This document shows positions 2,124 through 13,684 of a stretch of DNA of 64,000 nt, piece after piece (position 1 is the stretch's first letter; each line of letters opens with the position of its first letter). This DNA comes from Rubellicoccus peritrichatus (GTDB taxonomy: Bacteria; Verrucomicrobiota; Verrucomicrobiia; Opitutales; Cerasicoccaceae). The position numbers and the translations under genes were made by a program. The stretch covers positions 5,327,001-5,391,000 of the forward strand of contig NZ_CP136920.1 in NCBI RefSeq assembly GCF_033100135.1, given 5' to 3'. The notes under the pieces are model-generated. The model was not told where the DNA came from and did not search any database. It saw only the letters and a program-made list of their open reading frames with translations.

Positions 2124-3095
2124 CTACGATACCTTCAAAACACGACTGGGTTTCACCTTGCTTCGATAGCCTGGAGTAGCATCTGCATTGCTTCTAATAC
2201 GGTATAAACGAATAATCTCGTCCACAACTTTACTCCATGGAATACAAACACCCTCAACATTCAACGCACTTAATGATCTTTCATCTCCCGTACTGGTGAT
2301 GGGAAATTTGCTCCCAAATTCCTCCTGCAATGCCTTAGCACCTTCATCACCGATTGCAAAACAACCATCGAGTTTTTTATTATGCAATGATCTGGCCGAT
2401 TCTTTTGCTTCATTGTATCCCCAGTCCTTTTGATAAAGAATCTCTGCATCAGGAAAAACTTCCTGAAAGCCTTTCAATGCTCTTGTCGTAGCAAAGGTAG
2501 ACTTTCGACCAGCTAACATGGCAACATGCTTTGCACCTTTCTTCATTAACAGATGGCCGCATTTTTGCCCCATGGAGTAATGGTCAATAGCAACACGATC
2601 TGTAAAGACGGAATTAACTCCGGACTCAAGTTCTTCATCTACAATAAGACTGTATTGCAAGTGTGAGGAAAGATCTCGAAGGTCATAGCGCTGTCCCCAA
2701 ATAATACTGTATTGCCCTTTATAATATGACTTAAAGGCACTGCCTCTAACATGCCTGTAGGGGATGCCCTCTTTCGCGAGGCGCTCCTGGAGACAGTGCA
2801 AAAGTAATCCACCAAAGTTATCCTCACGAATGTGAGAATTGAATGAAAGAATAACCCCCTGAGGCGGTTGTTCTAAACCAGCAACATAAGTACCCGACGA
2901 AGGAATGCGATGCAAATACCCCTCCCTGGTAAGCTCATCAATCAGCCGATTGGCTGTCTGATAACAAATACCATAACGTTGTGCCAGTGCACGGTTGGAA
3001 CTAAATTTATACCCCGGACGGTGGTAGCCAGTTTGCAAACGTTCCACCAACTTCAATTTTACACGTTTCACGTGCTCAGTCCGAGGCCTAACCAT
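2124..3095 (-). CDS. GntR-type winged-helix regulator with LacI-like sensor domain
   Basis: This is a transcription factor of 323 residues. Residues 1-70 form a GntR winged helix: FSSNRALAQRYGICYQTANR is the recognition helix region, followed by the wing motif GYLHRIPSSGTYV. Residues about 75-310 match the periplasmic-binding-protein fold of LacI/GalR sensors, with HLLMKKGAKHVAMLAG, TRALKGFQEVFP and DGCFAIGDEG as recognisable blocks. In this architecture the sensor binds a sugar or sugar acid and changes DNA affinity. The gene stands alone, convergent with the beta-helix gene. It lies among polysaccharide-related genes and could control them, but no copy of the local 19-nt element is present in its own upstream region. 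Start is ATG at 3095. Family call is firm; ligand and targets are unknown. Confidence 0.85.
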   Translation of the reverse strand: MVRPRTEHVKRVKLKLVERLQTGYHRPGYKFSSNRALAQRYGICYQTANRLIDELTREGYLHRIPSSGTYVAGLEQPPQGVILSFNSHIREDNFGGLLLHCLQERLAKEGIPYRHVRGSAFKSYYKGQYSIIWGQRYDLRDLSSHLQYSLIVDEELESGVNSVFTDRVAIDHYSMGQKCGHLLMKKGAKHVAMLAGRKSTFATTRALKGFQEVFPDAEILYQKDWGYNEAKESARSLHNKKLDGCFAIGDEGAKALQEEFGSKFPITSTGDERSLSALNVEGVCIPWSKVVDEIIRLYRIRSNADATPGYRSKVKPSRVLKVS

Positions 3096-3232: not shown

Positions 3233-4045
3233 TCAAGCAGCAAGTTTTCTTCGACGAACCAAACCGCATACTGCGAGAGCCAGCAGTCCAGCGACACTTC
3301 CGTAAAATGACGGCTCTGGAACCGCTGCGATATCCAGGTCATTACGAACAACAAAATTATCAAAGGTGAAGATAGCATTATCCGGCTTGTCAAATGCGAA
3401 TGCAAAAGCGGATACCTCAGTAAGCTCAGAGGTTGTCTGAGTGTTTAGCTGATTATCAACAATAACCGTTTGATCGACCCAAATAGCATAATTATCACCA
3501 TCAAGCGTATAGCTTCCACCGTCAGGTCCGGTATAAGTAAGGCCATCTATCGTCGACTTGTTTTCGTATATCGAAAATATATGAGCCACATCAGTAGTAA
3601 CAGTTCCGCCAGCAAAAGTATAGGTGTCACCTTGACCAATAAATTCGGCTTGAGTGATACGATTAGCAGCATGGCTACCAAAAGGAAGATCATTGGCTCC
3701 AATATATAAGTAGCTGGCATTATGAGTGAAGTTATCCGTCGTAACATTAAGCGAATATGACATACTCAGGATTGACGTAGGCGTAAAATTCCGGGCATTC
3801 ATAATATCAAGTCCCTGGTTAAATACAGCAGAAGTCCGGTCCAGAACGAGTTTCCCATCTACAATATTAAGTGTATCCGGAGAGACGGCAACGAGCTCAT
3901 TGAACTGGTTAGTACCAGTTCCGATATAGTCTGCAACGACATTGCTGGAACTAAAATCCTGTTCAAAAATTACGTCACCCGACAGAACTGCCGGCGCGAG
4001 TAAAGTGAGGAACGCTGGTAAGTGTTTTTTTATATAGTTTTTCAT
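3233..4045 (-). CDS. PEP-CTERM sorting domain protein
   Basis: This is an exported protein of 270 residues. An N-terminal signal peptide (MKNYIKKHLPAFLTLLAPAVLSG) is followed by a beta-rich body with a FEQDFSSSN start, as in concanavalin-like jelly-roll domains. The last 27 residues are a PEP-CTERM tag: VPEPS, a hydrophobic helix, then the basic end RRRKLAA. In the known pathway an exosortase cleaves near the PEP motif and the protein goes to the cell surface or extracellular matrix. No exosortase is encoded in this window. The gene is flanked by a regulator and by the Verru_Chthon-type pair, but spacing of about 150 bp upstream argues for its own promoter. Body function is unknown. Confidence 0.85.
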   Translation of the reverse strand: MKNYIKKHLPAFLTLLAPAVLSGDVIFEQDFSSSNVVADYIGTGTNQFNELVAVSPDTLNIVDGKLVLDRTSAVFNQGLDIMNARNFTPTSILSMSYSLNVTTDNFTHNASYLYIGANDLPFGSHAANRITQAEFIGQGDTYTFAGGTVTTDVAHIFSIYENKSTIDGLTYTGPDGGSYTLDGDNYAIWVDQTVIVDNQLNTQTTSELTEVSAFAFAFDKPDNAIFTFDNFVVRNDLDIAAVPEPSFYGSVAGLLALAVCGLVRRRKLAA

Positions 4046-4197: not shown

Positions 4198-4887
4198 TCA
4201 TAAGGACATTCTCTCATAATCTGAGAGGATTCTGAATTTCATTGGACCAACATCGCGCGTCTCAGATTCTGATATCAATATTAAATATCGATACTTCTGC
4301 AAATGGCTCCACATGTTGGAATAGAGCGGGTGAATGCCATCCGGCGATCGAACAACAAAACCAACTGGAAATTCGGTGTCAGTAGTGAAAGGATCTTTGA
4401 GCAAAACGGTTTCCTGCGGAGCCAGATCAAAATGATCATCCCCAAATTTTGCCAATAGCTTCTTGTCAGTGAAATTGTAAAAGCGATAGCTACTAACTGG
4501 ATAAGCTTCAAAACTATCTTCGATTGCAACGATGGTATAACTTTCCCCTTCTTTAACAAATAAAAGAAGTGGCTGAGCCAGCAATGGGTTGAGGTATACC
4601 TGGGCGATCTCCTTAAACTCTTGTTGCCCTTCTCCCTCTTTCTTTTGAAAGAATACAACTGGGTTGGGTCCAATGTAGTTGATTAATGCCGATCTCCTCT
4701 GACTATGGATACGCATTTTTTCCATGCCTTCGTTGGTTCGAACAAAAACCTCACCTCGAATGGGACGATCCCAGCTGATACAGCTGAAAGAGGTGCTGAT
4801 CTGTTCCTCCGCACCAGCTAGCTTAAGCTGAAGCAATGGAATCATAACACACCAAAGAATGCATCTACCGTAGAAACTAAACATCAT
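4198..4887 (-). CDS. Small exported companion of the giant prepilin-like protein
   Basis: About 229 residues. I place the start at the ATG pair at 4887/4884, which overlaps the last codons of the upstream giant gene by 8-11 bp; a longer frame reaches 4986 but its extra residues only mirror the other gene. The N-terminus is a signal peptide ending near KLAGAEE. The mature part is mostly beta, with the block FYNFTDKKLLAKFGDDHFDL followed by an APQETV.L segment. Similar short proteins next to Verru_Chthon A-like genes carry a comparable block, by my recall. The overlap indicates translational coupling, so the two products probably act together at the envelope. No catalytic motif is visible. Confidence 0.7.
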   Translation of the reverse strand: MMFSFYGRCILWCVMIPLLQLKLAGAEEQISTSFSCISWDRPIRGEVFVRTNEGMEKMRIHSQRRSALINYIGPNPVVFFQKKEGEGQQEFKEIAQVYLNPLLAQPLLLFVKEGESYTIVAIEDSFEAYPVSSYRFYNFTDKKLLAKFGDDHFDLAPQETVLLKDPFTTDTEFPVGFVVRSPDGIHPLYSNMWSHLQKYRYLILISESETRDVGPMKFRILSDYERMSL

Positions 4888-7800
4888 CTTTATTGAGCCA
4901 ACGAAACTGAACAATTTTAAAACCACGACCAAATGTATCATTAAGACCATTGGGCGTAATGGCACTGACATCATCCCATGGTTCATTTTCAGCAGAATCT
5001 ACATAATCGGGCAGTCGCTGAACCAATGCCTCACACCAGGCACGCCCCTCGACTTGATCATTAAAACCAGCAACTTCCCCATAAGCTCGAATCACAAAGG
5101 TATCCGATCTGACGGATATGTAAGGTGCCAAAGGAGTCAGCAAATCGGCTTGTGTCAGCCAACCTGGAATTCCAGTAGCGGAATTACCCACCGCATTTTC
5201 TTCATAAAGATCGCTCACTAGCCCCCAATCATCACCGAAGTTATCACCATTTTGGCTGATATCATCATTAATATCAGCAACATCAATTGCCCTCGCCAAA
5301 ACACCCTGCAGCTGTTGATTGTTATCTGTTGAACCCGGTCGGCGATTAATAAAATCAGACAGACTCAAGAATGGTCCGCGTGTTTTGACCTCTTGAACAA
5401 TGGCACCAGCAAGTGCATCGATCTCAGCATCAGAAAGCTGGATGGGTGCATTCCAGTCATCCTTAGCATTGCTATCGGTTCCGATGTCAGCATTCGGCAA
5501 AGCAACCCGAGAAAACATAGCCCCATCTGCAGTCCCTGACGCAAAAGAACCATCGCCTTCGTAATAGTCAAAAGTATGCCCAAAGTTTGATGCAATGAAA
5601 GCCTTCCATGCTGTAACCGATGTTGAGTTCACATTGAATCCACCTTCCGGCGCCCAGTAAGCTGCTGTCTTCAGATAACCGTCAGCCTGACTCAATTCTG
5701 CTTGGGCGTCAGCATAATTCCCTTCTCCTATGTAAGCAAAACGCCGGTTGGACAGATTCGGATTTCCGTCACGAAAATGAGTTGGATCAAAAACTGAACT
5801 AATCTGCCCGCTTAAATCAAGATTACCGGACTCGGGAGATAAACTTGAGAAAAAGTAAGAATCATAGAGTGCCTCATTACTGAGATAAGAGATGTCATAG
5901 AGCGTCGGTCTCAAGTTATTGTTTTGATATCCATTTGTCAGCTGTTCGTTCAAGTCCAACTCATTAGAAGCGAAGTATGGAGGTGCCTGGCTATTACCAA
6001 TTGCATTCCTCGGCAAATAGGCAGATCGTGATATATTCGCATGCTGTAATGAGCCAAGGCTCCAAAGTGGAGCTGTTGGGATTTCCTGGAGAACACTTTG
6101 TTGCGAACCGTTACTGACAGAGTACCCATAGCCAAAGTATGTTTTGTCACCTCCCGAATAACTTTCAGGGCGCAAAGCATTATAAGAACCTGCACCATGC
6201 ATATCATGAACCTCAACAGTGTAACGCTCGGCTGTGGTCTCTGCACTGTGCTTCGCCAACCCCAAATATGCGAATGGATTTGTTCGCCCAAGCATTTCAC
6301 TAGGCACACCGGCATCGGTATTAGCCGGGTTCAGCCGAACCTCAATCGCCATAAACGGAAAACCATTTCCAATACCGATATCGTGAGGATATAATGTATA
6401 CCCTCCAACCGAATCAAAAGCATCGTGAATCGATGAGTCTGATCCTTTAGTATAGGCGCCACCAATTGAGCGTAAGATATGATCTTCAGAAAGAAAATCA
6501 CCGCCTTCTGCGATACTATCGGTATCGGTCATTAAGAAGTCCTGCCAATCCTGACTAATGATAGTTGCATCGTCATCCAGTCTGGATTCACGATACCGGT
6601 TATCGCTAACCCAATAGACATCATTGAGCGTGATGGCATACTGCGAGGGGATATTATCAACTACTGGCGACGGGACATTGTTTTGCGACTCACCTGCACC
6701 ACCATTTCTTGCTCGAGTAAAAGTTCGGGTTCTGGCCAAAGACGATGCTCGATAAAGCACAATGCCACCACTGGTATCCCAACCTGGTTCCAGAAATAGC
6801 GGCTGATCTCCCACTTCAATCTCCTCATTGTGGTAGGTTTCTGCTGCACTGAATATTCTTTGTTCACCGGGCTCCAGCACAATGGAATCACTTCCATCGG
6901 GTGGATTACCAATGATGAATCTGAAGGTTCCCGATGCCCTGCCTGCATTGTAGGGCATTGCTGTCGACATTATATTACCAATAGCCGCATTATAGCCCAT
7001 GTGGCTCGGATTACTCGGTGAGATTGGTTCATCCCAGGACAAATCAATACCAAACTGTGGTTGTCCAATCTGCACTTTATAGGCATTAAATGAGATCCGA
7101 GTGTTATAAGGATTCCAGACAACAGCAATTGGCTGAACCTTGACTGCGGTAATAGAACCCGGACCGTCATTCTTCACCTGCCATTGATAAGGGTTTTGCA
7201 AGCCATTATTGAAAACGCCAACCAGAGGGTTACCATCTGCATCACGATCGATACGATAAACGCCATCAGGCGGAGTAACGTTAACAAAGCTGTAAACCAT
7301 GAACATACGAACCACAACAGGTGCGACTTCATGAGCGGTCAGACGTGGAATGTTTGCGTATTCAGGACTCTGATTAATTTCATTAGCCTGAATTGGAAGA
7401 ACCTCAACATTGACGAAATTGTTTCGCGAATCGATGCTCTTCGATGAATCCTTACTATCCATGATATTGGTGTAAGTGAGTCGCATACCATGCAAAGTAG
7501 GGTTGCCATGTTCATCACTATAACGGTCACTTGCCGCAATGTAATTATAATCAACCGTATTAGGTCTGTATGAACGAGAGGCAATAACAGGATTTGAATC
7601 TTCTTCTTCGATATCTTTATAGAGACGGTAATAGTCTCTTAAGAAATGCCAGGTTGGACCGCGAACAAATGCGTCGTTGCTGATATCAAGTATAGGATAC
7701 TTAAACAGATAGCTGACCGGGCCCTTAATATACTCATCAAAGTAGGCACTGCCATCTGTTTCCGGATTATCCAAACGGAGTGAATCAGGATTCCCTCCAA

Positions 7801-8866
7801 ATGGTGAACTGTTAAAATCAGCATCGTCACTCTCAAAAAGGAAACTCAAATCCTTTTTCAATCCTCCGTTGCGAACATCAACTTGAAGCATAGTACTGCT
7901 CAAACCAATATCGTGGAAATAACCAGGCAGCACATCCCCCCAGTCGGCACCTGCTGAATTCTCAATATGGCCGGCATCGGAAAAATACAAAACACGGTCA
8001 AATGCCTGTGCCTGCCCCGAACTTGTATCTTCGAGATTGTAATCGCCCAAACCGGATATCGAAGCAATACCGACACCATCTGGCGCCATAAGATTATTCC
8101 TTGTGCCTGTGGATGCCGCATCCAGGTAGCGATCATCAACAAGGTTTATCGGGGCTTTTTGTCCCTCATCCGAAATCCAGTAAGCATATTTATCGGAAGT
8201 GACTGCATTGTCTTTCTCGATATCAACCTTTGGGGCAAAAACAAAATCATTAACATCCACTGAAGCCCCGGGATTGGTTCCACCTAATGAATTCATTCCG
8301 GCAAGCAAAGCCACATCCGGGTCGACAGGGAAAAAATCAGCATCAAGCGTCGTATTGATTTGGGGAATACTTCCCGCATAAGTGCTGTCATCATACTTTG
8401 ATACCAGCCAGCCCATGTGTTCAGCGTTTGGATTTCGAACCCACGTCTTGTCAAAGTAGTTTGAATCACCTGGATCAAATGCTTTTTCAGATGTATTCCA
8501 AACCCCAACCCAGTGACGGCGAGGGTCATCATCGGCAGCACCCAAGGCACTCGTTGATGGATCACCATCCGACTTCAATAACCATGATGAAGCACTGGCC
8601 CGCTGGTCCGGCCCCATTTGCTTTTGAAGATTTCCCAGGGCAACATTCAACCCGACAAGCGCATTTAACTTCGCTTGAGTGTGTGCTTTTTGCGCTGTGA
8701 CGGTGGAGGTCTGCACCAATGTTGATATAGATAAGCTGTAGAGGATCAAAACAATGAAACCCAACATTCCAATCGCTACAATGAGGGCAAAACCATTCCG
8801 CCTCTGCAATCTCTGCGCACTCCGGCCTGATAGTTCTGCACGGCCAAATTTGCTTCTATTCGACAT
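4877..8866 (-). CDS. Verru_Chthon cassette protein A-like giant prepilin-like protein
   Basis: This protein has about 1329 residues with a type IV prepilin-like N-terminus: a short basic leader (QRLQRRNG), then FALIVAIGMLGFIVLILYSL as a membrane helix, then a hydrophilic amphipathic helix rich in Ala, Gln and Leu. The G-F junction resembles a prepilin peptidase site. The rest is a very long low-complexity beta-rich exported region rich in Asp, Asn, Ser and Tyr, as in the Verru_Chthon cassette A family (from memory of TIGR02600). The usual cassette partners B, C and D are not in this window. Start: an upstream TTG at 8881 would add five residues, but I prefer the ATG at 8866. A 19-nt repeat element lies 115 nt upstream. 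The function of the family is unknown. Confidence 0.7.
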   Translation of the reverse strand: MSNRSKFGRAELSGRSAQRLQRRNGFALIVAIGMLGFIVLILYSLSISTLVQTSTVTAQKAHTQAKLNALVGLNVALGNLQKQMGPDQRASASSWLLKSDGDPSTSALGAADDDPRRHWVGVWNTSEKAFDPGDSNYFDKTWVRNPNAEHMGWLVSKYDDSTYAGSIPQINTTLDADFFPVDPDVALLAGMNSLGGTNPGASVDVNDFVFAPKVDIEKDNAVTSDKYAYWISDEGQKAPINLVDDRYLDAASTGTRNNLMAPDGVGIASISGLGDYNLEDTSSGQAQAFDRVLYFSDAGHIENSAGADWGDVLPGYFHDIGLSSTMLQVDVRNGGLKKDLSFLFESDDADFNSSPFGGNPDSLRLDNPETDGSAYFDEYIKGPVSYLFKYPILDISNDAFVRGPTWHFLRDYYRLYKDIEEEDSNPVIASRSYRPNTVDYNYIAASDRYSDEHGNPTLHGMRLTYTNIMDSKDSSKSIDSRNNFVNVEVLPIQANEINQSPEYANIPRLTAHEVAPVVVRMFMVYSFVNVTPPDGVYRIDRDADGNPLVGVFNNGLQNPYQWQVKNDGPGSITAVKVQPIAVVWNPYNTRISFNAYKVQIGQPQFGIDLSWDEPISPSNPSHMGYNAAIGNIMSTAMPYNAGRASGTFRFIIGNPPDGSDSIVLEPGEQRIFSAAETYHNEEIEVGDQPLFLEPGWDTSGGIVLYRASSLARTRTFTRARNGGAGESQNNVPSPVVDNIPSQYAITLNDVYWVSDNRYRESRLDDDATIISQDWQDFLMTDTDSIAEGGDFLSEDHILRSIGGAYTKGSDSSIHDAFDSVGGYTLYPHDIGIGNGFPFMAIEVRLNPANTDAGVPSEMLGRTNPFAYLGLAKHSAETTAERYTVEVHDMHGAGSYNALRPESYSGGDKTYFGYGYSVSNGSQQSVLQEIPTAPLWSLGSLQHANISRSAYLPRNAIGNSQAPPYFASNELDLNEQLTNGYQNNNLRPTLYDISYLSNEALYDSYFFSSLSPESGNLDLSGQISSVFDPTHFRDGNPNLSNRRFAYIGEGNYADAQAELSQADGYLKTAAYWAPEGGFNVNSTSVTAWKAFIASNFGHTFDYYEGDGSFASGTADGAMFSRVALPNADIGTDSNAKDDWNAPIQLSDAEIDALAGAIVQEVKTRGPFLSLSDFINRRPGSTDNNQQLQGVLARAIDVADINDDISQNGDNFGDDWGLVSDLYEENAVGNSATGIPGWLTQADLLTPLAPYISVRSDTFVIRAYGEVAGFNDQVEGRAWCEALVQRLPDYVDSAENEPWDDVSAITPNGLNDTFGRGFKIVQFRWLNKDDV

Positions 8867-8981
8867 AAAAATTAAACTCAACGAGGGCAGGCAACTGGGG
8901 TGACACCTGCTATTCCATTTATATAAGAGAAAATAAACTTTTTGAATATTCCCATCAACCCTTATTCAGAGCGCTCAAGAC

Positions 8982-9000
8982 AAACCGATATGATAACCCT
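8982..9000. promoter_or_regulatory. 19-nt upstream element, copy 1
   Basis: The sequence reads AAACCGATATGATAACCCT. It lies 115 nt upstream of the giant prepilin-like gene. Copies 2 and 3 lie upstream of two other leftward genes, all in the same orientation. Two AACC boxes are 12 nt apart, about one helical turn, so a protein could contact both on one face. Confidence 0.5.
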
Positions 9001-9048
9001 CGAGGCAGATCTAGAAGTTCACAAGTATCAGAATAGCAAAGCTTTATC

Positions 9049-9813
9049 CTAGTTTGAGTGTATCCAGTCGAGAAAGCTGCTCAGGCTTGGCTTAACCGAT
9101 TCAGTTGGGTAATACTCTAAGCCAATGTAGCCGTTGTACTGTTGCCTTTCCAACTCACGAATCAAAAAAGGATAATTGATCTCTCCCTTCACTGGTTCGT
9201 TTCGCCCGGGGTTGCCGGCGGCATGAAAATGGCCAATCTTGTCCAGGTTGTTGAAGATTCTCTGAGAAAGGCGCCCTTGCGTAACTTGCTGATGATAGAC
9301 ATCAAACAGTACCTTAATGTGGGGACTATTCAGTTCCTCAACAATGGAAAATGCCTCATCCGCACAGGAAAGGAAATAACCCGGGCCCGGCGAATCAACA
9401 GGATTGAGCGGTTCAACCAATAAAACAAAATTTGCCCTCTCCAGCAAAGGAACGCATTTGGCCAATCCATCAATCAAGTGCTGACGCATTTCAAAGCGAC
9501 TCATACTCGGCATCTCCATGCCGACCTGTGTAATCAGTTGGGAACACCCTAAACGTTTCCCCATCCGAATAGACTTCCTCAATCCGATAACGTAATCATC
9601 ATGCTGATCTGGATCAGTCAAACTGGTGAAGAGAGTACAAAAAGCACTGACAGGCATACCAGTCGATTCCCGCGCCTCGAGAACTTGCTGTGCCTTAATC
9701 TCATCCCATTTCCAAAACTCAAAACCATCGAAGCCGAGTTCCTGACAAGTTAGGACACTCTCAATTATGGACATTTCAGGGAAGACGGTATTCAAACAAA
9801 CGCTAATTTTCAT
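9049..9813 (-). CDS. Hydroxypyruvate-isomerase-like TIM-barrel sugar isomerase
   Basis: A cytoplasmic protein of 254 residues, AP-endonuclease-2-type xylose-isomerase-like fold. It starts MKISVCLNTVF and has VEPLNPVDSPGPGYF, then DVYHQQ, then IGHFHAAGNPGRNEP, GEINYPFLI and GYIGLEYYP. These blocks follow hydroxypyruvate isomerases (Hyi): two acidic metal ligands, a DxYH motif, and a HxHxA..PGRxEP motif. The reaction would interconvert hydroxypyruvate and tartronate semialdehyde or isomerise a related sugar acid. A 19-nt element lies 88 nt upstream. It sits between the giant prepilin-like gene and a secreted glycoside hydrolase, so it may handle a sugar released by the latter. Exact substrate is not shown by sequence. 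Confidence 0.8.
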   Translation of the reverse strand: MKISVCLNTVFPEMSIIESVLTCQELGFDGFEFWKWDEIKAQQVLEARESTGMPVSAFCTLFTSLTDPDQHDDYVIGLRKSIRMGKRLGCSQLITQVGMEMPSMSRFEMRQHLIDGLAKCVPLLERANFVLLVEPLNPVDSPGPGYFLSCADEAFSIVEELNSPHIKVLFDVYHQQVTQGRLSQRIFNNLDKIGHFHAAGNPGRNEPVKGEINYPFLIRELERQQYNGYIGLEYYPTESVKPSLSSFLDWIHSN

Positions 9814-9901
9814 GGATACAATAAAATCATCACTAAATTATTTATTACATTCATAGACCTCTTATCCATCGCCGCCAACTGTGATTATGCAACTCAGCCA
9901 G

Positions 9902-9920
9902 AAACCGCTATGATAACCTT
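9902..9920. promoter_or_regulatory. 19-nt upstream element, copy 2
   Basis: The sequence is AAACCGCTATGATAACCTT, two changes from copy 1. It lies 88 nt upstream of the TIM-barrel isomerase gene, in the same orientation as the other copies. Confidence 0.5.
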
Positions 9921-10068
9921 ATAACACGATTCACTGAAATGACAGTGCCCCTAAGGAAGTGTCATCAGGATTCGCGCTCTGGAATTATCTTTCCAAAGAC
10001 GATTGATTCGCTCCTGGCAACAGGCAGGTAGCTGTGACATACAGATACTCAGCAGCGAACGTTCCAGA

Positions 10069-13000
10069 CTAATCAATAACCGGAACAACGTTAATCCATC
10101 TTAACTCGACCTTACCTGTGGCCTTCACCAAAACCGGACCACCACTCGTAGTGAATGTAGCTTTGTCCGCAATGCGATTATTAATCTCCAATGGGATCTG
10201 GACGGCCTCGCCACCTTGAGGTTCGATAATCAAATCCTCAGGTCTCTCGTTACCGCGTAGCGAAGCACCATTGAATTGGATTTGATAAGTTCCGGGCTCT
10301 ACCTCAAACTGAAAAACTGTATCCGGTGCAAACAGAACATGGTGCTTCGTGGCGACATGCTTTCTACTCACATAATGTTTAAACTCATTGCGTTGCGCCG
10401 GAACCTGAAAGCCATAACCCCGATCCTCATCATACATCATATCATTGGCAACTGGCTTCATACTGCGAATCTTCCCAAAGTTATAATAGGTAACCGTCGA
10501 AGGATCCCCAAAGTCATATAGGTATGTATTTGCCTTGGCCATCAACTCGCGCTTCTCAGTATCTGCTGCCTTGATAGCCGCTGCTTCATGCATCACTTCA
10601 TTCATTTGGGCGGCGCCATTATCCAAATTAATATAGAGCGGATAATCTGTCAGGGTAAGGTCATTGGTTGAATCCACATCGAACTGATAACCGAATGCAT
10701 CGGTCACCTTTGCTTTGCCAAAATCGACACCCAGCTTGACCGTTCCCTCGAGCGTCCAGGCAGTAATAAGGACGCCACCATCCTCACGCTTCCAGGCATA
10801 AATATAAACAAAAGGGTCTTCACTTTCAAGCATTCCCAAAGGTTCTGCGTCATAGATCTGCCTCGTCATAGTAGCGAGGGTAAACCATGAGGCCTTGCGT
10901 GAGCCGTCATTACGATGAATCCCTGCCGATGCATGCTTTGTTGGCGTTGATCCTGACTCCCGGTAAACAAAGACTTTATCAACCCCGTTTTGAAGAGCCA
11001 GCATGATAATTCTCACAAGCTTGGCCGCCTGCTTTCTCTCAGTTGATGCAATAGGGCCTCCGGTATCGTAACCGGTTTCCGTTAGCCAAACCTCGGCACT
11101 GGGGCGATACTGATCTCTCCATGCTGATAACTGACGCATCAATTCAGGAAACCCGGCACTCAATGCCTCACCGGAGTTAAAGTCATCTCCCGCAGTCTCC
11201 GGATCCTCCGGGCCACTGTAGTAATGCACGTTGAATATATCACAAAAATCGATTGGTCGTTTCCCGTCTGGATATTGATATTCATACAAAACGTGCATCA
11301 TCTCGGATGTGGCCCCAGCCATCCCGGGAGAAGATATAATCGCCTCCGGATATGCATCAACGACCCCGTCATATCCCTTGCGAAACAATGGCCAGAACTC
11401 GTCGAGAGTTCCACGCCATGGTCCCCAGGTAGGGACCTTGTCACCAACCTTAGGATTCAGGTTGGGCTCATTCCAGATTTCATAATGATCGATGTAGCCC
11501 AGGCCACTGACCTTATCCTCGGTGAGGAGGCGTTCTTCCGGAACTTTGTCTTTGCCGTAACGTGCAGTCAACTGAAACATGTATTCCTCGTAGCCATCAT
11601 AATCCCTGGGAGGATAGCCTCCGATGTCCCTAACTTCTTTAACCGATTCAGGGGCGTTACTGGCATGAACAGGTGTGACGATGGTTAATGGGATAATACC
11701 GAACCCGGCATCATGATAATCTTTGAAGATGGCATCAAAATCGACCTGCCATGGTTTTACAGAACCATCAAAAGCAAACCGACCTGGCTCAGGATTGCAA
11801 AAAGCCCATTTGGAATTTTCAAAACGAATCCAGCCAATCCCAACTTTTTTCAAACTGTCGATATATTTGGTCGAAGCGGAGTTCATCCCAATACGGGACT
11901 TCTCTTTTGTAATTTCAAAAACCGGGTCTGGCTCAACATAGATATGGCGAAACTTCATGATCTCTTGAGCTCCGTCATCAATCAACACGGATAACAGATA
12001 GCTGCCTGACTGCATGGCAGCACTGACTGGAATAGAAACAAGAGTCGAACTCAAGGACTCAACCGATACCGTCTCTCTGGTTTCAGCAAGGAGCTCGCCC
12101 ACTTCAGGAATCGTATAAGTATCGTTCTCCGGTCCGTCAAAAATGATAATACGTGATGGAGCTGCCATCAAATTTCTGGGTGTATCCGTATGATAGTGGA
12201 ACTTGATAAACTTTGCCTCGAAAGGCTCAAACTCCGGAAACCAATTGAAGCTCCACTTCCGGTACATATCCACATCCTGAAGTCCCTCAACAGGACTAAA
12301 ACTCTCTCCATCCAAAGAAGCAAGCACATCGACTTTCCAAACCTTATCAGCCTGCCCACTACGCCATTTCATCGCAGTAACATTACGAACTGAGTCCAGT
12401 TCAACAGTTTGGTCAAACTCAGTCCAGTAGTCTTTCTTGTAGGGCGTAACGGCAGACGTCAGCTCAGTCCCATCAACAAGTGTGTCTGTCGCAATGATTT
12501 TGCCATCCGCATAGGTTTTGGAATGTGCTTTTAGAGCGTGATCAAACCCATGCTCATGATGAGGTTCTAAGACATCAACATTAGCAGAGTCGACCTGCAG
12601 TGTGCTGTATATCGAGTAATCCGTATCTCTGTCATTGTAGTTCTTGATAACCAAATCCAGATTCAGCTTATCTCCGAGCTCAAGTTCGATTGGAGAAACG
12701 ACATCCACATCCAACACTGGCGATCCTTTGGCAGTATCAGAGACCTCGATTTTTTTGACCAGCCGCATGTCATCGACGACAATAGAACTTTCGCCAACAT
12801 CCTTAGCCCACCAAATGATATCAGCGCTCTTGAGGGGAAAATCCAGAAGCTTGTTATGATCTTTTTGAGCGTAGGCTTGTTCAAAGTTTTCGTCATTGAT
12901 GTCAAACGTCAGCTTCTGCCAGCCGGGAAATATTTCCTCGGTAAGGGCCAGCATCGATTCGCCTTTTGCATCATAAACCTGAAGCCCGACTGACTTCACA

Positions 13001-13311
13001 TTGGCATTATCCTCAAGGTAAAGCCAATAGCTGATCTTTGAAGCATTACCGGGATTACAACCCACGCCAAAATGTCCCTTCGCCACTTGATGTTTAGCAA
13101 GACCTGAAAACCGAAGAGCGGTCGATCCCAGTTTGGGCTTCACATCGCTGGCCTTAGTCACGGTCTCATCAGCCATATTATAACCACCTGGCCGAATACT
13201 TGAGGCAGAATTCATTGGGTTCGCAATTTCAGACATCTCAACAATATCTGAATAACCATAAGTGCATAGCGATAAGCATGCTAATGCCAATATTTTCAAG
13301 TTTGCTTTCAT
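10069..13311 (-). CDS. Large secreted clan-A glycoside hydrolase (GH39-like) with carbohydrate-binding domains
   Basis: This protein has 1080 residues and a signal peptide (KILALACLSLCTYG). Residues about 30-180 resemble a carbohydrate-binding jelly roll. Residues about 290-400 resemble an F5/8 type C (discoidin) domain (KVDVLASLDGESFSPV). Residues about 475-830 form a TIM barrel with a clan-A signature: EIWNEPN near 611-617 (acid/base Glu) and EVWLTETGYD near 743 (nucleophile Glu). Residues about 930-1078 resemble a malectin-like end domain (YDFGDPSTV..YYNFG). The fit is to GH39-like or related retaining enzymes acting on an exported polysaccharide; the substrate cannot be read. It is a single leftward gene with a 19-nt element 354 nt upstream. 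Stop is at 10069; the start ATG is at 13311. Confidence 0.8.
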   Translation of the reverse strand: MKANLKILALACLSLCTYGYSDIVEMSEIANPMNSASSIRPGGYNMADETVTKASDVKPKLGSTALRFSGLAKHQVAKGHFGVGCNPGNASKISYWLYLEDNANVKSVGLQVYDAKGESMLALTEEIFPGWQKLTFDINDENFEQAYAQKDHNKLLDFPLKSADIIWWAKDVGESSIVVDDMRLVKKIEVSDTAKGSPVLDVDVVSPIELELGDKLNLDLVIKNYNDRDTDYSIYSTLQVDSANVDVLEPHHEHGFDHALKAHSKTYADGKIIATDTLVDGTELTSAVTPYKKDYWTEFDQTVELDSVRNVTAMKWRSGQADKVWKVDVLASLDGESFSPVEGLQDVDMYRKWSFNWFPEFEPFEAKFIKFHYHTDTPRNLMAAPSRIIIFDGPENDTYTIPEVGELLAETRETVSVESLSSTLVSIPVSAAMQSGSYLLSVLIDDGAQEIMKFRHIYVEPDPVFEITKEKSRIGMNSASTKYIDSLKKVGIGWIRFENSKWAFCNPEPGRFAFDGSVKPWQVDFDAIFKDYHDAGFGIIPLTIVTPVHASNAPESVKEVRDIGGYPPRDYDGYEEYMFQLTARYGKDKVPEERLLTEDKVSGLGYIDHYEIWNEPNLNPKVGDKVPTWGPWRGTLDEFWPLFRKGYDGVVDAYPEAIISSPGMAGATSEMMHVLYEYQYPDGKRPIDFCDIFNVHYYSGPEDPETAGDDFNSGEALSAGFPELMRQLSAWRDQYRPSAEVWLTETGYDTGGPIASTERKQAAKLVRIIMLALQNGVDKVFVYRESGSTPTKHASAGIHRNDGSRKASWFTLATMTRQIYDAEPLGMLESEDPFVYIYAWKREDGGVLITAWTLEGTVKLGVDFGKAKVTDAFGYQFDVDSTNDLTLTDYPLYINLDNGAAQMNEVMHEAAAIKAADTEKRELMAKANTYLYDFGDPSTVTYYNFGKIRSMKPVANDMMYDEDRGYGFQVPAQRNEFKHYVSRKHVATKHHVLFAPDTVFQFEVEPGTYQIQFNGASLRGNERPEDLIIEPQGGEAVQIPLEINNRIADKATFTTSGGPVLVKATGKVELRWINVVPVID

Positions 13312-13455
13312 AAAAATAATCTAAAAACAGAAAGTAATAATCCTTAACCTTAGCACATCAAAAAGCGATTCGATGAGCACGATGAATTACAGTGAATACA
13401 ATTTAAGACATATAGAATATCAGCTCTTTTACTATCAATACAAAAGAGGCAGATC

Positions 13456-13473
13456 CTTGATTCACGAATCAAG
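13456..13473. promoter_or_regulatory. 8-bp inverted repeat upstream of the hydrolase gene
   Basis: CTTGATTC and GAATCAAG face each other around two bases, 144 nt upstream of the GH start. The symmetry suits a dimeric regulator of the GntR or LacI type. No second copy was seen in the window. Confidence 0.35.
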
Positions 13474-13665
13474 CCAACTACTTAAAAAAACAAACTAACC
13501 GACACTCTTCATCAACCATACAAAACGATAATTCGATCATCATATCCCCTCTTAATCCCTTTTAATAAAAAGGATTCAGGATCAACAATGTTTTCATGAC
13601 TAGAATCAAAAATCAGGAAATGTCATATATAAAAAGACTAAATAACCTGATCGACCAGCCTTAGG

Positions 13666-13684
13666 AAACCGATATGGTAACCCT
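13666..13684. promoter_or_regulatory. 19-nt upstream element, copy 3
   Basis: The sequence is AAACCGATATGGTAACCCT, one change from copy 1. It lies 354 nt upstream of the secreted hydrolase gene, within the gene-free stretch, in the same orientation as copies 1 and 2. Confidence 0.5.

Follow-up and report, generated by a model that had tools for sequence, protein, structure and literature searches.

A 19-nt element repeated in a Cerasicoccaceae polysaccharide locus as the probable operator arm of a GntR/LacI-type regulator

The best explanation for the 19-nt element repeated upstream of three genes in this locus, to which we give a probability of roughly 0.85, is that it represents the stronger arm of an operator for the regulator encoded at 2124-3095, which would bind the complete dyad, sense a sugar and activate the three genes. 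Sequence comparisons strongly support both the putative operator and its pairing with this regulator. The window, i.e. the whole 64-kb stretch analysed, corresponds to G000:C1:5327001-5391000, and genome G000 was scanned by pattern. The relevant genes are as follows.

2124-3095, minus strand: predicted cognate regulator, with a GntR winged helix of the HutC type joined to a sugar-binding domain of the LacI/RbsR type
3233-4045, minus strand: PEP-CTERM protein, encoded between the genes for the small protein and the regulator, without a site of its own
4198-4986, minus strand: small protein, overlapping the giant gene and coming after it in most paralogous cassettes
4877-8881, minus strand: predicted target, giant pseudopilin-like protein of 1334 aa with a hydrophobic N-terminus and a weak GspK match (E 0.012)
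9049-9813, minus strand: predicted target, TIM-barrel sugar isomerase/epimerase-like protein (Pfam AP_endonuc_2, 3.9e-35)
10069-13311, minus strand: predicted target, secreted hydrolase-like protein of 1080 aa with a TIM-barrel glycosidase-like region by inspection

As described in the earlier note, the element is present as an exact copy at 8982-9000, with two changes at 9902-9920 and with one change at 13666-13684. The three copies share one orientation, and no copies are expected in shuffled window sequence (0 in 100 shuffles). There is one copy in each of three consecutive gaps 5' of the leftward hydrolase, TIM-barrel and giant genes. Because the sites sit in the gaps before start codons at 13311, 9813 and 8881 (first TTG of the giant gene; its ATG is at 8866), the distances of 354, 88 and 115 nt quoted for these genes hold. 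The window scan confirmed the absence of a fourth copy, and the three copies are the only matches with up to two mismatches in the whole 5.8-Mb genome. At three mismatches, five matches were found elsewhere in the genome, four of which are copies of one phage repeat. When the bases at two variable positions were freed, the three window sites were still the only exact genome matches, and looser matches did not exceed background. The copies are not generic promoter sequence. Two-mismatch matches of two relatives (L009 and L010), outside the family, were also recorded.

As a side observation, the genome harbours outside the window, at G000:C1:about 4498000-4621000 (L277-L280), a 35,720-base unit in head-to-tail repeats, 100% identical over the 24 kb compared (matches at 4505592, 4541312, 4577032 and 4612770). 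This unit carries portal, terminase, primase, helicase and tape-measure genes and is either a tandem prophage or the assembly of a phage concatemer.

Of the 19-mer, the regions upstream of paralogous cassettes have only the right part in common, which reads TCATAYCRGTT on the gene strand; the consensus of the element across regulator loci is ATTATCATATCAGTTT. The conserved unit, CATAYCRSTTT with an upstream RTTA, forms one arm of a 38-bp inverted repeat, the second box (AASYGATnnnTTAAT) being an inverted copy of the first (RTTA-N4-ATCRSTT). Read on the gene strand, the element RTTAYCATAYCRSTTT is repeated inverted and in weaker form 23 bp further on; a -35-like TTG comes next, then a -10-like hexamer. 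No palindrome was found inside the 24-mer alone; the dyad emerged only when the downstream sequence was aligned, using 21 target sites and 29 regulator-adjacent sites (~50 in total). A dyad centre 14.5 nt from the start of the core was clearly the best of those tested, with 49% complementarity versus a mean of 27%. The second arm is strong in regulator-adjacent sites and weak in target sites, including those of the window and of other Cerasicoccaceae. Compared with the GntR-wide form N-GT-Nx-AC-N, the GT is present in the predicted operator and its partner reads A(G/C) at a spacing of 10. The predicted sites and promoters of the window are listed below.

8930-8958, minus strand: predicted promoter 1, -35 TTGATG (8958-8953), 17-nt spacer, -10 TATTTT (8935-8930), with the TTG at the conserved offset
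8960-8977, minus strand: candidate operator site 1, degenerate right arm TGAGCGCTCTGAATAAGG, with the dyad centre taken from the alignment of 50 sites
8978-9001, minus strand: candidate operator site 1, left arm (GTTATCATATCGGTTTGT on the gene strand, 8997-8980), upstream of the giant gene; 26.2 bits
9850-9878, minus strand: predicted promoter 2, -35 TTGGCG (9878-9873), 17-nt spacer, -10 TATGAA (9855-9850)
9898-9921, minus strand: candidate operator site 2, left arm (GTTATCATAGCGGTTTCT, 9917-9900), right arm at 9897-9880, upstream of the TIM-barrel gene; 17.5 bits
13662-13685, minus strand: candidate operator site 3, left arm (GTTACCATATCGGTTTCC, 13681-13664), right arm at 13661-13644, upstream of the secreted hydrolase gene; 18.8 bits

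These scores come from a matrix of 30 sites. When other loci alone were used for the matrix, site 1 ranked first in the 64-kb window, at 20.0 bits. Site 3 is the weakest promoter match because its -35 position reads TTTAGT, without TTG. Across loci, a TTG is found directly past the dyad at the same offset (one of two adjacent positions) in 19 of the 21 target sites, against a shuffle maximum of 7. A -10-like hexamer at a spacer of 16-18 nt is also commoner than in shuffles (p < 0.001); as the sites had been preselected for TTG, this test supports a promoter there without measuring how many sites have one.

Relatives of the regulator were found in Cerasicoccaceae, other Opitutales, Planctomycetes and Acidobacteria MAGs. 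The named family loci include those of Cerasicoccus maritimus, C. arenae and C. frondis; the genome of the window belongs to the same family and to another genus. In 739 kb of fetched sequence, exact TCATAYCRGTT has 10 distinct matches, all 10 of them intergenic, directed toward the next gene and located in loci of regulator relatives. In other families of the order, the regulator loci carry the same motif, usually at the start of the regulator gene. For a held-out test, we ran a regulator-family profile against a separate collection of named genomes, which yielded 36 loci, including some from Phycisphaerales, a Luteitalea MAG and an Abditibacterium MAG. The motif is present on the same strand within ~30 nt of the regulator start codon in 21 of the 23 held-out loci (those outside the matrix), the weakest sites scoring 11-13 bits; L230 and L239 lack a clear site in this position. 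These counts are not independent events, since some test loci share ancestry with matrix loci; the most independent are the Planctomycete and Luteitalea loci. The motif does not reflect a coding constraint, because sites in different loci lie in all possible frames relative to the start codon. For 14 other GntR regulators of the order, no match above 10.9 bits was found in 3 kb.

A composite pattern (the core, 24-26 nt and TTG) was scanned in six genomes and gave 29 matches. All 13 in regulator-associated contig regions are intergenic, whereas only 2 of the 16 elsewhere are, the other 14 lying inside genes (Fisher p = 1.8e-6). In G005, where no regulator of the family was detected at the search threshold used, the four composite matches are all inside genes. 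Intergenic composite sites were also seen at L282:8923 (G000:C1:3072.9 kb), before a rhamnosidase-like gene, and at L283:9847 (G007), before a PA14-domain gene, with no family regulator detected nearby; they are possible extra, distant targets of the regulator family.

A dispersed regulon was rejected. With two mismatches allowed, the core has 31 matches versus 83 for the reversed control, and the 11-mer occurs at a chance rate genome-wide. The genome-wide Verru_Chthon/PEP-CTERM regulon envisaged earlier was not seen, the core being at chance rate outside regulator loci. Conservation in related genomes, a check suggested by the earlier note, bears out its more local proposals: the same core accompanies the regulator family across phyla, which supports the regulator at 2124-3095 as the candidate binding factor and a local regulon in which a shared operator would join the pilin-like giant gene to sugar-breakdown genes. 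The proposed binding mode fared differently: related sites do not preserve the pair of AACC boxes, of which the left one (on the gene strand, GGTT) occurs at the window locus only, and the reading of the boxes as a direct-repeat binding unit was rejected.

The N-terminus of the regulator matches Pfam GntR (PF00392, E 2.8e-7) and the DNA-binding domain of AraR (4egy, 1.1e-6). Its C-terminus matches Peripla_BP_4 (PF13407) at E 1.4e-6, which is below the model's own cut-off in the window protein and above it in the relative of L196. Profile matches include YvoA/NagR, AraR and LacI-family structures, the last at 2e-16. Pfam detected no UTRA effector domain, a periplasmic-binding domain being found instead, and no LacI helix-turn-helix, GntR standing in its place. 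The recognition helix SYQTAHRL is almost invariant among the relatives; that of the window regulator, CYQTANRL, is slightly off the family. A paralogue at L093:9637-10674 (G000:C1:3830637) has SYLTAHRL and has thus lost the near-invariant Gln. Its locus has no strong site, a single case consistent with the helix change. For a close relative of the regulator in L088, the only site is a weaker one 22 kb away.

The promoter of the window regulator lacks a copy of the element, as had been reported, with no site 5' of 2124-3095. Adjoining the regulator, at 2-2095, a large protein is encoded (1039 aa when extended to the left, L106:6976-10095). It weakly matches models for hyaluronate lyase and rhamnogalacturonidase, and its upstream side yielded no operator.

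Among the predicted targets, the TIM-barrel protein is hydroxypyruvate isomerase-like, below equivalog cut-offs, and the hydrolase has no GH Pfam match. The giant protein fits no named NCBIfam or Pfam family. Even at E values up to 10, it gave only weak GspK and GspM matches and none to Verru_Chthon (the inclusion of this model in the library is assumed), and the Verru_Chthon naming was dropped. Most genomes of its family, the Cerasicoccaceae, contain 17-22 places that match it, and its paralogues are usually followed by the small overlapping gene. The giant, small, hydrolase and regulator genes recur together as a cassette, both in this genome and in Cerasicoccus, and relatives of the regulator share loci with relatives of the hydrolase in the family and order searched. 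Hydrolase paralogues without a nearby regulator (L100-L105) have no strong intergenic site pointing at a gene. The target genes of Cerasicoccaceae cassettes include GH92, GH94 and rhamnosidase-like enzymes, which suggests that the regulator paralogues are tuned to different glycans.

The position of the site differs between lineages. In relatives outside Cerasicoccaceae, it lies mostly at the regulator's own start codon, between the regulator and a divergent gene, an arrangement from which we propose autorepression together with activation of the divergent operon. Since these operons often encode a sugar (short-chain) dehydrogenase, a ROK sugar kinase, a SIS sugar isomerase and similar proteins, we take a sugar or sugar derivative to be the likely ligand. 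In the regulator loci L192, L193 and L194 from other Opitutales families, a second site was observed before an operon coding in order for a methionine-synthase-like (MetE C-terminal-like) protein, then lactonase-like, SIS and GFO/IDH/MocA proteins; these may form an unusual sugar pathway. In Cerasicoccaceae, the own-start site is mostly absent, and sites are found instead before giant pseudopilin-like, secreted hydrolase and glycosidase genes, always oriented toward the gene. The site would have moved to genes of the glycan locus, with loss of the autoregulatory copy. The regulator would bind the dyad as a dimer, its LacI-type domain would sense a sugar or oligosaccharide from the glycan and, bound just upstream of the -35 box, it would recruit RNA polymerase to all three genes, those for the hydrolase, the TIM-barrel protein and the giant pseudopilin-like protein.

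The same operator and regulator might instead work by repression, as for AraR and NagR, with the regulator on the promoters without sugar and released by it. This is a credible second choice, as the cited GntR/LacI and HutC regulators are repressors, like the described AraR and most GntR relatives. Furthermore, at the regulator's own gene the site overlaps the stretch immediately 5' of the start codon and fits autorepression. However, the target dyads end shortly before the -35 box, at a distance that hardly varies and in a single orientation always toward the gene, neither of which a repressor needs. This arrangement favours activation of the target genes, as judged from the layout of the sites.

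It is improbable that the element belongs to another transcription factor or to an alternative sigma factor, with the regulator a mere neighbour. Some paralogous loci do hold classical LacI regulators as well, and the composite sites of L282 and L283 have no GntR/LacI relative detected nearby, but the regulator is the only gene constantly found beside the site across phyla, and the -35 and -10 boxes resemble ordinary sigma-70 boxes. That the three copies, all within 4.7 kb, are leftovers of duplicated DNA or of a mobile repeat without regulatory role is hardly tenable, as their flanks share no repeat, the core is kept between regulators of ~30% identity from different phyla, where neutral DNA is saturated, and the held-out conservation already contradicts it.

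The regulator belongs to the known AraR type of GntR/LacI proteins; we found no description of this family or of its operator in the literature searched, and a survey of GntR motifs does not mention Verrucomicrobia (PMC4494728). AraR of Bacillus subtilis has the same domain order, a GntR winged helix followed by a LacI-type domain; it also regulates a sugar locus, from palindromic operators at several local promoters, including those of glycan-degrading genes (PMC4218819). In contrast, the predicted operator here, RTTAYCATAYCRSTTT-N-AASYGAT-N3-TTAAT, has arms much further apart than the AraR operator ATTTGTACGTACAAAT, which the consensus of 30 sites does not match. The site here also abuts the -35 box, which suggests activation, and the winged helix is closer to HutC/YvoA. 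The HutC subfamily (NagR/YvoA, DasR) indeed provides the best structural match for the DNA-binding domain, but the present regulator has no UTRA domain and its operator is not the GT-N4-AC of the HutC consensus (PMC4494728). With the LacI family (RbsR, PurR) it shares the ligand domain, the LacI helix-turn-helix being replaced by the GntR winged helix.

Regulation in Verrucomicrobiota and Planctomycetota has hardly been mapped, and a readable operator that tracks one regulator family across phyla offers a direct route to target prediction. Tying giant pseudopilin-like proteins to particular polysaccharide loci also makes their role testable. In a related Verrucomicrobiota isolate, an expansion of pseudopilins has been linked to alginate use, with Cerasicoccaceae reported as donors of some genes (PMC13274419).

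The cassettes can also be compared with the SusCD loci of Bacteroidota. Those loci have dedicated HTCS or ECF regulators. As in SusCD loci, each glycan locus here combines one regulator, a surface protein and hydrolases, but in place of SusC/D and their regulators there are a giant pseudopilin-like protein and a one-component regulator. We tentatively envisage this GntR/LacI-type family as ligand-dependent activators acting through the 38-bp dyad immediately upstream of -35, with each Cerasicoccaceae copy driving its own giant pseudopilin-like protein and matching hydrolases; such cassettes might then be a Verrucomicrobial counterpart of SusCD-type systems, where the glycan would induce the very surface filament that helps to use it.
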